This document shows positions 28,075 through 31,841 of a stretch of DNA of 46,087 nt, piece after piece. The translations under genes and the position numbers were made by a program. The notes under the pieces are model-generated. The model searched no databases. It saw only the letters and a list, made by a program, of their open reading frames with translations, and was not told the DNA's origin. The DNA is from Halanaerobiaceae bacterium (lineage in GTDB: Bacteria > Bacillota > Halanaerobiia > Halanaerobiales > Halarsenatibacteraceae): assembly GCA_007134885.1 (NCBI GenBank), contig SLJX01000033.1, positions 1 through 46,087 on the forward strand, read 5' to 3'. Numbering within the stretch: the stretch's first letter is position 1; each line of letters starts with the position of its first letter.

Positions 28075-28626
28075 ATGATTTTATCAGATAGAGCACTGCA
28101 GGAAATGGTCAATTCAGGCGAATTAAAGATAAAACCGCTGGAGCCGGGACAGATCCAGCCGGCTTCCGTTGATCTCAGGCTGGACAGCAGCTTTTTAAAA
28201 ATTAATGAGAACCTCATGGAATACATGACACTGAAAGATAAACCGGAATATGAAAGGCTGGAACAGGATGAAATTGTTATTCCTCCTCATTCCTTTCTGC
28301 TGGCTGCGACAGCGGAATATATTGCCCTGCCGGATGATGTAACTGCTTTTGTGGAGGGGCGTAGTTCCATTGGAAGAATGGGACTTTTTATCCAGAATGC
28401 CGGCTGGGTTGATCCTGGCTTTGAAGGGCAGATTACCCTGGAACTTTATAATGCCAACAGACTGCCCATTAAACTCTTTGCCGGCCGGAGGATCTGTCAG
28501 CTGGTCTTTGCCCGGATGGATCAACCGGCAGCCCGTCCTTACAGCGGTAAATATCAAAAACAGCAGCAGGCAGTAGGCAGCAGGGCATATCTGGATGAAG
28601 AAAATCAACCGGCAGAGAGCGGTTAG
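28075..28626 (+). CDS. dcd: dCTP deaminase
   Basis: 183 aa. Deaminates dCTP to dUTP, the main route to thymidylate in many bacteria. Start MILSDRALQEMV, IQPASVDLRL, then EGRSSIGRMGLFI (94-106) with S97 and R101, and WVDPGFEGQITLEL with E123, matching the catalytic serine, arginine and glutamate of the family. Some members also hydrolyse dUTP; this cannot be decided here. ATG 28075 has AAAGGAGA upstream. Confidence 0.95.
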   Translation: MILSDRALQEMVNSGELKIKPLEPGQIQPASVDLRLDSSFLKINENLMEYMTLKDKPEYERLEQDEIVIPPHSFLLAATAEYIALPDDVTAFVEGRSSIGRMGLFIQNAGWVDPGFEGQITLELYNANRLPIKLFAGRRICQLVFARMDQPAARPYSGKYQKQQQAVGSRAYLDEENQPAESG

Positions 28627-28653
28627 ATGAGCTTGTGGCAGGAGGTGCAGTAA

Positions 28654-30807
28654 ATGATAAAAATAATTATCACAGGATTTGAAAAAAAGATAGGCCCGGG
28701 TGATATAGTAGGTGCTTTTATCAATGAATGCGGGGTAGCCAGTGATGATATCGGAAAAATTAATATCTCAAATAATAAGGCTGAGGTTGAACTGGCTGAG
28801 AAGGTTGCTGCCCGGGTGATCGAGCGAATGGATGATAATCAGATCGGGGGAGTGAATGTCAGGTTAACTCCGGCCAATCCCGAGAGAATTATGGCTCCTG
28901 ATCTGGTAGAATATATCAAAAAAATGCAGCAGGAGATTGTCGAGGAGCGGGAAGAACAGGCAGAGAAATTCCGGCTCCAGCTTAAACATTTTAACATCCA
29001 TGCCAGGAAGAAAAGAGGACAGGCGGTAACCGGTCTCAGGGGGAGAAAAAACGGCAGCTATTTTGATAATAGAGATCTGCTGCTGCTCTATTCTCCCAGG
29101 CCCGGCAGGGAACTGCCGGAAAACCTGATTGGAGAAGGGGATACGGTTCTGATAAATCACGGAGGCCAGGGGGAAGGTGAGGCAGTGACCGCCGAGGTTA
29201 TTGAAATGTCTCCCTATTATTATTTAACTGCTCTGAATTCCGGGCTGCCTGATTTTTCAGCTGATACCCGTTTTACCATTGATCTCTATTACAGTGAAGA
29301 TGTCTACCGCAGACGTGAGGAGGCAGTCCAGGCCTGCCGGGAAATCAGTGGTTCTGCCAGAAGGCTGAGAGATGTAATGCTGTTGGGCCGGGCTCAGCCG
29401 GGCTGGCTCAAGCAGGAGATACGGATCAGGGACTGGAATAACAGGGACCTGGTGCCGGAGCAGAAATCGGCGGTTCAGAAAGCTCTCAACTGCCGGGATT
29501 ATTTTCTGCTGGATGGAGGTTCGGGGACGGGCCGAACAGAAACAGTTATTGAAATAATCAGCCAGGCGGTTAAAAAGGGGGAACAGGTTCTGGCAGTGGC
29601 CAAATCCCGCAGAGTGCTGGATCTGATTGCTGAAAAACTGGCGGCTTCCGCCATTAAAGTAACCCGGGCTGGTTATCCCGGAAGGAACACGGAATTTCAC
29701 CGAAAAACCAGACTGGCCAATCAGGTGCTGGAGGAAAAAGAATATCTGGACTCCCGCCGGCTGGAAATTCAGGCCCTGGATCTGGAAACTGAAAAGGAAA
29801 ATCTGGCTGCAGGCCGCGAATCTGCTGGAGTTAATCTGAACCGCAGAGATGTTCAGCTGCGATTTCAGGAAAGGCTTGAGGTTCTTCAGGAGAGGATTTT
29901 TGATAAAAAACGAGCTGCGGTAAATTCTCTGCTGGAGAAAGCGCAGGTGGTGCTGGCCACTCCCGGAGAAATTTCTGCTGAATTTTTTCAGGAGCGAGAC
30001 TTTGATTTTCTAACTGTTGATGATGCCAATCTTATTAAAGAAACAGCAGTTCTTCCAGCTCTTTTGAAGACAAAAAGAGTGATGCTGGCAGCTAACTCCC
30101 ACACAGGCTCCTCAAAGAACAGCCTGTATACCAGACTGTTACAGGAGCAGAGTCTGGATTTCTGCCAGCAGCTGCGGATTCAGCACCGGCTGCCGGAAGC
30201 TATTATGGGTTATATTAACAGCCATCTCTCCGGAGATGAAAATTATGCCGGCTCGATGCTGGCCAATCACCGAAAGAGAAAAAGCTTATTTCCGGAAAAC
30301 AGAGCTGGAGAGGCAGAAACTCCTGAAGAAAAAGCTATACTGGGAGAAGAAACAATGGTGTTTCTTGATACCAGAAATTTACTGGCAGCTGAAAAACAGC
30401 ATCCAAAATCCGATTCTTACTTTAACCCGGTGGAAGCGGAGATAGCTGCTGATCTTATTTATACTGGAGAAAGAAGTGGTCTAAAATCTACCCGGATCGG
30501 AATAATGACCTTTTACCAGGATCAGTGCCGTTATCTAAATCAGATGGGTTTGGCCGAAGAGGTTTTGATTAGCACCGTTGCAGGATATCAGGGGCTGGAA
30601 AGAGATGTTATGATTGTCAGTCTTGTCAGAAGCAACCGCAAAAATTACCTGGGCAGTCTCAAAGATTTTGATCTGCTGCTGACAGCCCTTACCAGGGCAA
30701 AAATGAAGCTGATTCTGATTGGAGATTCTGAAACCCTTAAGTCCGGGGAAAGCTACTCCCGCCTGATTGATTATTGCCGGAGCAGCGGATTTTATCTGGC
30801 AATTTAG
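28654..30807 (+). CDS. DbpA-type RNA-binding domain fused to a degenerate SF1B (IGHMBP2/UPF1-like) helicase
   Basis: 717 aa. Residues 4-72 match the DbpA RNA-binding domain: KIGPGDIVGAFINECGV, then DIGKINI and IGGVNVRL. Next comes a charged helix (85-110) and an OB-like 1B region (about 112-215). The SF1B helicase core follows: Q-motif Q270; Walker A G288-G-S-G-T-G-R294-T with arginine in place of the essential lysine; motif Ia AVAKSRR instead of APSN; Walker B VDDAN (455-459) instead of DEAS; motif III LAANS with no GD..Q. In contrast, motif V TVAGYQGLERDVMIVSLVRS and motif VI ALTRAKMKLILIGD look intact. Thus the ATP-binding half is altered and the second RecA half is conserved. It may bind RNA and hydrolyse ATP poorly or not at all. 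AGGAGGTG precedes ATG 28654. Last gene before a new promoter. Confidence 0.87.
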   Translation: MIKIIITGFEKKIGPGDIVGAFINECGVASDDIGKINISNNKAEVELAEKVAARVIERMDDNQIGGVNVRLTPANPERIMAPDLVEYIKKMQQEIVEEREEQAEKFRLQLKHFNIHARKKRGQAVTGLRGRKNGSYFDNRDLLLLYSPRPGRELPENLIGEGDTVLINHGGQGEGEAVTAEVIEMSPYYYLTALNSGLPDFSADTRFTIDLYYSEDVYRRREEAVQACREISGSARRLRDVMLLGRAQPGWLKQEIRIRDWNNRDLVPEQKSAVQKALNCRDYFLLDGGSGTGRTETVIEIISQAVKKGEQVLAVAKSRRVLDLIAEKLAASAIKVTRAGYPGRNTEFHRKTRLANQVLEEKEYLDSRRLEIQALDLETEKENLAAGRESAGVNLNRRDVQLRFQERLEVLQERIFDKKRAAVNSLLEKAQVVLATPGEISAEFFQERDFDFLTVDDANLIKETAVLPALLKTKRVMLAANSHTGSSKNSLYTRLLQEQSLDFCQQLRIQHRLPEAIMGYINSHLSGDENYAGSMLANHRKRKSLFPENRAGEAETPEEKAILGEETMVFLDTRNLLAAEKQHPKSDSYFNPVEAEIAADLIYTGERSGLKSTRIGIMTFYQDQCRYLNQMGLAEEVLISTVAGYQGLERDVMIVSLVRSNRKNYLGSLKDFDLLLTALTRAKMKLILIGDSETLKSGESYSRLIDYCRSSGFYLAI

Positions 30808-31008: not shown

Positions 31009-31158
31009 ATGAGAGACTTTCTAAAAAAGTCAAGGGATTTGAGCGAGGAAGAGCGGAAAAAAATTGCTCAAGAAATGATTGAGGGCTATAAAAAGATTAT
31101 CGAAAAGGAATCGGAGGCCGAGAACTCTAACAGGGGCAGTATTTCAGAGAAAAAATAG
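31009..31158 (+). CDS. Small unknown protein, 49 aa, upstream of mazE
   Basis: ATG 31009 to TAG 31156-31158, with GAGGGAGAG (30995-31003) as Shine-Dalgarno. The sequence is highly charged: DFLKKSRDLSEEERKKIAQE near the start, then MIEGYKKIIEKE, with a polar tail; the first 35 residues should form one amphipathic helix. I do not recognise a family. It lies between the strong promoter and mazE and ends 14 bases before it, so it is probably the first gene of the toxin-antitoxin transcript. Confidence 0.6.
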   Translation: MRDFLKKSRDLSEEERKKIAQEMIEGYKKIIEKESEAENSNRGSISEKK

Positions 31159-31172
31159 CGGGGGTGTAGCAA

Positions 31173-31451
31173 GTGGGGGATAAAAAATTATTGCAGATCA
31201 GCCTGCCCGATAATTTGATGAATGAAGTGGAAGGTTATCTTGCTTCCGGTGAAACTATCAGCAACAGTGAATTTTTTCAGGAGGCTGTTCGGCTTTACCT
31301 GGTTCACTTAAAGAGAGATCAGATGAAAAGGCAGTTAAGAAATGGTTATCTGGAAATGAGTGATTTAAACAGAGATCTGGCCGATGAGGGGCTTTTATCC
31401 AACCAGCAGGCTATTACATTTTATGAAGATAATCTGGCAGGATGTGATTGA
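31173..31451 (+). CDS. mazE: Antitoxin, EndoAI/MazE-like ribbon-helix-helix protein
   Basis: 92 aa from GTG 31173. N-terminal ribbon-helix-helix DNA-binding region (LLQISLPDNLMNEVEGYLAS and SNSEFFQEAVRLYLVHLKRD, about 5-49), then the region RQLRNGYLEMSDLNRDLADE that in Bacillus EndoAI wraps around the toxin. Antitoxin genes of this type repress their own promoter. The toxin gene follows 39 bases later. Confidence 0.92.
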   Translation: MGDKKLLQISLPDNLMNEVEGYLASGETISNSEFFQEAVRLYLVHLKRDQMKRQLRNGYLEMSDLNRDLADEGLLSNQQAITFYEDNLAGCD

Positions 31452-31490
31452 ATAAATAAAAGTGATAAATGTTAGTGGAGAGTGAATACA

Positions 31491-31841
31491 GTGGATATTT
31501 TACGAGGTGATGTTTTTTATGCCGACCTAAATCCTGTGGTGGGTTCGGAGCAGGGGGGAACCCGGCCGGTTGTTATAATCCAGAATGATATTGGCAACAG
31601 GTACAGTCCAACAGTAATTGTGGCTGCCATTACCTCCAGAATTAGAAAAGCCAAACTGCCGACCCATGTTGAGATAGAGGCCGGGGATAGTGAACTTGAT
31701 AAGGATTCGGTAATACTTTTGGAGCAGATTAGAACCCTGGATAAGCAGAGACTGGAAAGGCATATTACCAGACTGGATCCCGAGATAATAAAAGAGGTTA
31801 ACCGGGCAATTGAAATAAGCCTGGGTTTGATAGACTTTTAG
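31491..31841 (+). CDS. mazF: mRNA interferase toxin, EndoA/MazF
   Basis: 116 aa from GTG 31491, the same length as Bacillus EndoA; an in-frame GTG at 31482 would add three residues but lies on the Shine-Dalgarno. Strong family match throughout: [39 protein letters not shown] and [18 protein letters not shown], ending ISLGLIDF. It cuts RNA at specific short sites (UACAU in the Bacillus enzyme). Chromosomal housekeeping-type toxin-antitoxin pair. Confidence 0.95.

Follow-up and report, generated by a model that had tools for sequence, protein, structure and literature searches.

A putative genus-wide pseudohelicase derived from an ordinary DbpA-fused SF1B helicase in the Halanaerobiia

Why would bacteria keep a helicase-like gene whose product lacks the residues that drive the motor? 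The question is raised by a 717-residue protein encoded in the window, by which we mean the whole stretch of 46,087 nucleotides analysed here (Halanaerobiaceae bacterium, contig SLJX01000033.1). The original prediction saw in it a DbpA RNA-binding domain placed before an IGHMBP2/UPF1-like SF1B core with a broken ATP site, and this architecture is confirmed. The reading frame starts at ATG, and the coordinates of all features are given in Table 1. Residues 8-72 match the Pfam family PF03880 (DbpA) with 54.1 bits, for a curated cut-off of 25.6 that is similarly passed in two other members of the genus (L003 and L005); this score and a domain scan of relatives rule out a chance match. The lobes of the core match AAA_12 (109 bits) and AAA_11 (70 bits) in Pfam, which makes it an SF1B core and not that of a DEAD-box SF2 helicase such as DbpA. 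The NCBIfam model of the IGHMBP2 family (TIGR00376) gives 271 bits, under its equivalog cut-off of 349 bits; scores are 200-244 in genus members, and 621 and 672 in two intact orthologues. The nearest solved structure by sequence is IGHMBP2 (4b3f, 3.7e-38). Structure prediction, proposed earlier as a check, agrees with these assignments. The AlphaFold model (mean pLDDT 82, pTM 0.72) has an SF1B fold with 1B, RecA1 and RecA2, and Foldseek places 4b3f and 4b3g on top (4b3g_A, TM 0.62/0.70). The modelled DbpA domain has the RRM-like order beta-alpha-beta-beta-alpha-beta, with strands at residues 2-7, 33-39, 42-47 and 70-73 and helices at 15-26 and 49-59.

Table 1. Features of the locus (positions in the window).
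Feature	Position	Strand	Evidence
Putative DbpA-SF1B pseudohelicase gene, 717 aa	28654..30807	+	ORF, profile and fold matches, motifs
Ribosome-binding site AGGAGGT	28640..28646	+	sequence; 7 nt upstream of ATG
N-terminal DbpA RNA-binding domain, residues 1-75	28654..28878	+	Pfam, column retention, dN/dS
Stalk and 1B 'barrel', residues 76-260, weakly conserved	28879..29433	+	alignment; RNA contacts per PMC5452015
Q-motif Gln270, present in all lineages	29461..29463	+	alignment
Motif I (Walker A) GGSGTGRT, residues 288-295; R294 at 29533-29535	29515..29538	+	alignment
Motif II, D456-D457 (DE in intact orthologues)	30019..30024	+	alignment
Motif III remnant; intact form is GDHKQLPPT plus more; about a dozen residues gone	30094..30123	+	alignment
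Motif IIIa/IV QHRL (intact QYRM); R512 kept, adenine-stacking Tyr replaced by His511	30181..30192	+	alignment; Tyr role PMC5452015
Motif V TVAGYQGLE, residues 641-649; E649 kept	30574..30600	+	alignment
Motif VI T680-R681; Arg in every lineage; preceding RR(L)N of intact orthologues lost	30691..30696	+	alignment
dcd (dCTP deaminase-like), conserved upstream neighbour	28075..28626	+	synteny
mazE-like and mazF-like genes, conserved downstream neighbours, synteny anchor	31173..31841	+	synteny

The combination of domains had been regarded as peculiar, and here the original prediction must be revised. A protein search at a loose threshold gave matches in 49 of 61 relatives, some of which are separate DbpA domains only. 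At a strict threshold the gene is present in 44 of the 59 genomes of the class and absent from 15. Among these 44, 34 are intact, with GPPGTGKT, DEAT and GDHKQLPPT, nine have altered motifs and one is cut by a contig end (G007). In the class loci examined the order is acpS-nnrD, usually CBS and/or dcd, the gene, and mazE-mazF, with not every neighbour detected at each locus. Beyond the class, intact fusions passing the DbpA cut-off occur in an archaeon (Methanohalarchaeum, L070) and in planctomycetes (L078, L081 and L105). The DbpA-SF1B fusion is old and ordinary in this lineage, and since intact fusions are standard in the class and present elsewhere, we dropped the unusual fusion as the main finding.

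The state of the core in the genus is another matter. Our sample of the genus has four genomes, two of them close to each other: that of the window and those of L003, L004 and L005 (89%, 70% and 48% identity). All four share GGxGTGRT, DD in Walker B, the absence of motif III and QHRL for QYRM, so that the Walker A lysine, the Walker B glutamate and the motif III glutamine are missing from every one of them. The codons of R294 are CGA, CGG and AGA. The motifs had thus been read correctly, including R294 and the DD pair, the replaced asparagine of motif Ia, a motif III both eroded and shortened, and motifs V and VI with their ligands E649 and R681 in place. Normal GxGKT and DE motifs in close relatives would have spoken for a sequencing error or a one-off mutation. 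They are found in other genera of the family, two of which are intact (L006 and L008), and in most of the class, but not within the genus, and the presence of R294, D457 and the loss of motif III in four genomes rules out both explanations. Orthologues are normally intact and these changes are fixed in the genus; hence, judging from the motifs, we regard the gene as coding for a pseudohelicase characteristic of the genus: it descends from an ordinary DbpA-SF1B helicase, has lost its catalytic residues and is kept by selection.

Which parts of the protein, then, were kept? We took the 169 columns that are identical across 33 intact orthologues and called retained those kept in all four genus members; the residue sets were chosen by us from known motifs and from the Sen1/Upf1 contacts in PMC5452015. 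The DbpA domain keeps 19 of its 19 class-invariant columns. The ATP site keeps 10 of 14 residues (Q270, G288, G291, T292, G293, T295, D456, R512, E649 and R681), the changes being K294R, E457D, the motif III glutamine and Y511H. The remaining columns are kept in 43 of 130 cases, and the RNA contacts in none of six, the latter being a small set of six or seven Upf1/Sen1 positions mapped by alignment only. The ATP site differs in retention both from the rest (p=0.006) and from the RNA contacts (p=0.005). Lost genus-wide are the motif Ia asparagine, the stalk threonine and arginine, which contact RNA in Upf1, the Pro-Thr following motif III, the PY tyrosine and the arginine preceding motif VI; the protein of the window itself retains two of the six, the stalk arginine and the PY tyrosine. 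Within the genus, 13 of the 14 ATP-site columns, changed ones included, are identical, versus 218 of 621 in the rest of the core (p=1.5e-5). The proposed selective decay of nucleotide binding is therefore not supported: within the core nothing is better preserved than the residues of the ATP site, and it is the RNA contacts that went. The supposed retention of the second RecA lobe fares no better, as class-invariant columns kept in all four members amount to 44-46% in RecA2 versus 47% in the motif I/Ia half of RecA1. Clearly poorer retention is confined to three parts: the motif II/III half keeps 20%, the 1C insert 13% and the 1B domain 29%. What survives of the earlier interpretation is the pairing of a DbpA domain with an SF1B core, the very probable death of the motor, and a likely role as RNA-binding clamp or remodelling factor.

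The RNA-binding domain can be compared with that of YxiN, in which the backbone of I436, G437 and I439 reads guanine and K427 contacts a base (PMC3695512). The former correspond to I33, G34 and I36 here and are kept, but the equivalent of K427 is Asn24, invariant among the aligned orthologues. By this alignment the domain probably binds RNA, with a preference that may differ from that of YxiN; 23S rRNA hairpin 92 is a possible specific target.

Taken together, we lean, at somewhat better than even confidence, towards a non-translocating, DbpA-tethered and probably nucleotide-gated factor that binds RNA or the ribosome. By its position the gene is orthologous to an ordinary DbpA-fused SF1B helicase, and would have come to encode a pseudohelicase in this genus. 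The DbpA domain of the protein would dock on a structured RNA, with rRNA or a pre-ribosomal particle as the most likely candidate. Its core would probably still bind nucleotide, with neither translocation along RNA nor ATP hydrolysis at a useful rate, and the protein would serve not as an unwindase but as a scaffold or as a factor that binds RNA or the ribosome under the control of a nucleotide. That ATPase activity was lost and nucleotide binding kept is inferred, as are the RNA target and the role.

One might argue that the core no longer binds nucleotide at all, and simply holds the fold or a protein partner, leaving the work to the DbpA domain. K294, E457, the motif III glutamine and the adenine-stacking tyrosine are all altered, most class-invariant residues are gone from the motif II/III half and the 1C insert, and the P-loop columns may be held for folding rather than for nucleotide binding. 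Yet Q270, the P-loop glycines, T295, D456, R512, E649 and R681 are found in every genus member, and the pocket is far more constant than the remaining core. We consider such a pure scaffold rather unlikely.

The opposite possibility is that the enzyme tolerates the arginine, the longer R294 and the shorter D457 compensating each other so that ATP is hydrolysed and movement on RNA retained. Both changes conserve charge, so slow hydrolysis is possible; they are fixed together in the genus, and the arginines and glutamate of motifs IV, V and VI are kept. But motif III is gone, none of the six RNA-track residues is kept across the genus, and E457D is found elsewhere without K294R. Moreover, changing the Walker A lysine to arginine is enough to abolish both ATPase and helicase activity in the PriA of E. 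coli, and D. radiodurans has a PriA that naturally carries GRT and that experiments have shown to be a pseudohelicase with its DNA binding preserved (PMC4504706). In Sen1, the motif II glutamate-to-glutamine mutant is inactive (PMC5452015). Given these effects, and with motif III and the RNA track both lost, the 717-residue protein appears very unlikely to translocate, and we hold an active ATPase of this kind to be improbable.

A gene on its way out would also accumulate such changes, selection having been relaxed towards the loss seen in families f7 and f10. This gene does evolve fastest among the neighbours compared, and is missing from 15 of the 59 class genomes. Over the whole gene, dN/dS is 0.25 between the window and L003 and 0.20 between the window and L004, versus about 0.05-0.08 for intact pairs; neighbouring genes in the same genomes mostly have 0.01-0.19, the asparaginase-like gene showing too few changes relative to G003 to count. 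Values above those of intact pairs, and still near 0.2, indicate selection that looks looser than on intact orthologues and is clearly purifying. In the DbpA part dN/dS is 0.03-0.06. Slow pseudogenisation is thus hard to reconcile with the purifying selection, with a fully conserved DbpA domain at about 0.05, with a good ribosome-binding site and with frames open at full length in four species, of which one pair has a dS near 0.9 and the deepest comparison is saturated; we think it quite improbable.

Least probable, and by our estimate hardly credible, is that another helicase took over the unwinding and left this protein as its RNA adaptor: other DEAD/DEAH-type matches do exist in its own genome, but the genus has no DbpA-type DEAD-box helicase, the intact g2 and g4 lack it too, and the decayed G005, G017, G020 and G042 keep DbpA domains on separate ORFs of DEAD-box size, so that loss of that helicase does not track the decay and we rejected it as an explanation. 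An intact paralogue was likewise set aside, none being found among the four genus members: three have no other AAA_12 helicase, and the AAA_12 matches in G003 lie in a 1775-residue ORF of another kind. No second DbpA domain was found in any of the four genomes. As a separate observation, families f7 and f10 (14 genomes) miss the DbpA-SF1B gene altogether and genera g1, g2 and g4 are without a second DbpA-domain protein, i.e. DbpA-domain helicases were lost in differing combinations.

Is the genus alone in this respect? Damaged motifs are also found in L041 (G005, same family), L042 (G017), L024 (G020) and L036/L037 (family f9). These proteins keep the Walker A lysine, R512, E649 and R681, and have lost half or more of the RNA track. 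E457 became aspartate in L041, L042, L036 and L037; L024 is the weakest case of decay, with GPPATGKT and EE. L041, L042 and L024 have the whole DbpA domain; family f9 keeps 15 of its 19 columns. The protein's own tree gives three changes of state, but was set aside for counting since long branches meet in it. We used instead a tree of seven neighbouring genes, which gives at least four changes: genus g1 with g3 once (join support 84/82), G017, G020 (sister to an intact genome at 100/100) and G039. In the f3 pair, one decay plus one restoration costs equal steps and seems biologically less likely. Motif decay thus seems, by these alignments and this tree, to have been independent in at least four lineages of the class, the genus of the window included.

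If the same disarming took place at least four times in related bacteria, the important job of the protein may not be unwinding. One might tentatively propose, with less confidence than for the single protein, that, on at least four separate occasions, DbpA-SF1B proteins of the class turned from RNA motors into nucleotide-gated RNA clamps, the RNA track being lost, glutamate becoming aspartate in three lineages, and the RNA-binding domain and the pocket staying constant. Were this true, the important ancestral function would be nucleotide-dependent binding of RNA or the ribosome, not unwinding. RNA binding through the DbpA domain is then predicted to be the indispensable part. Bacterial UPF1/IGHMBP2-like helicases are little studied, and a conserved locus that holds intact versions as well as several that were disarmed independently offers a natural experiment on the moving and binding roles of an RNA helicase.

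PriA is an SF2 DNA helicase. The PriA of D. radiodurans is the closest precedent for the 717-residue protein: both are bacterial proteins orthologous to an active helicase, both read GRT in place of GKT in Walker A and have a degenerate Walker B, the change is conserved across the clade in both, and nucleic-acid binding is kept in PriA (PMC4504706). Here, unlike in PriA, the core is SF1B with a DbpA RNA-binding domain attached, and several lineages show recurrent damage at one and the same locus. IGHMBP2 has an R3H domain at its C-terminus. Our protein resembles IGHMBP2/SMUBP-2 (4b3f, 4b3g; TIGR00376) in its stalk, 1B, two RecA lobes and motif order, and differs from it in its N-terminal DbpA domain, its changed catalytic residues and its score below the TIGR00376 cut-off. 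With the RNA-binding domains of the DEAD-box helicases DbpA, YxiN and Hera (2g0c, 3moj, 7pli) it shares PF03880 and the guanine-reading positions, whereas here the domain is N-terminal on an SF1B core and K427 of YxiN is replaced by N24. The intact class orthologues (such as L006, L007 and L009) have the same locus and domains (30-37% identity over the alignment), but their motifs I, II, III and IV and their RNA-track residues are complete. RecC and AddB contain inactive SF1 helicase domains, i.e. SF1 folds repurposed for binding and not for motion; unlike the present protein, they are DNA repair subunits of a complex, with unrelated locus and accessory domains. Pseudohelicases, DbpA domains and bacterial IGHMBP2-like helicases are already known. 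The literature searched held no paper and no experiment on a DbpA-SF1B fusion; what is new is this class of proteins itself, together with its repeated loss of the motor at a single conserved locus while the RNA-binding domain stayed almost unchanged.

Some minor observations concern the relatives and the surroundings of the gene. The IGHMBP2-like helicases of Campylobacterota (L074, L072, L071 and L107) have a short N-terminal stretch resembling half a DbpA domain; it has no Pfam match in the two scanned (L072 and L074) and is possibly a diverged RNA-binding domain. Downstream of mazF, the asparaginase-like gene of L170 (G003:C173, about 1-2200) is nearly identical to its counterpart in the window, with a dS of 0.004, and the two amidohydrolase proteins are 100% identical, versus a dS of 0.14-0.34 for other genes, which suggests recent recombination or a mixed bin. 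A Pfam scan at 0.001 gave no match for the mazE-like gene preceding mazF (31173-31448, +). A conserved 49-residue ORF (31009-31158, +) lies between mazE and the helicase gene; several relatives have it in the same position, at about 43-88% across the part that matches. It has no match in Pfam and could be a small protein tied to the helicase or to mazEF.
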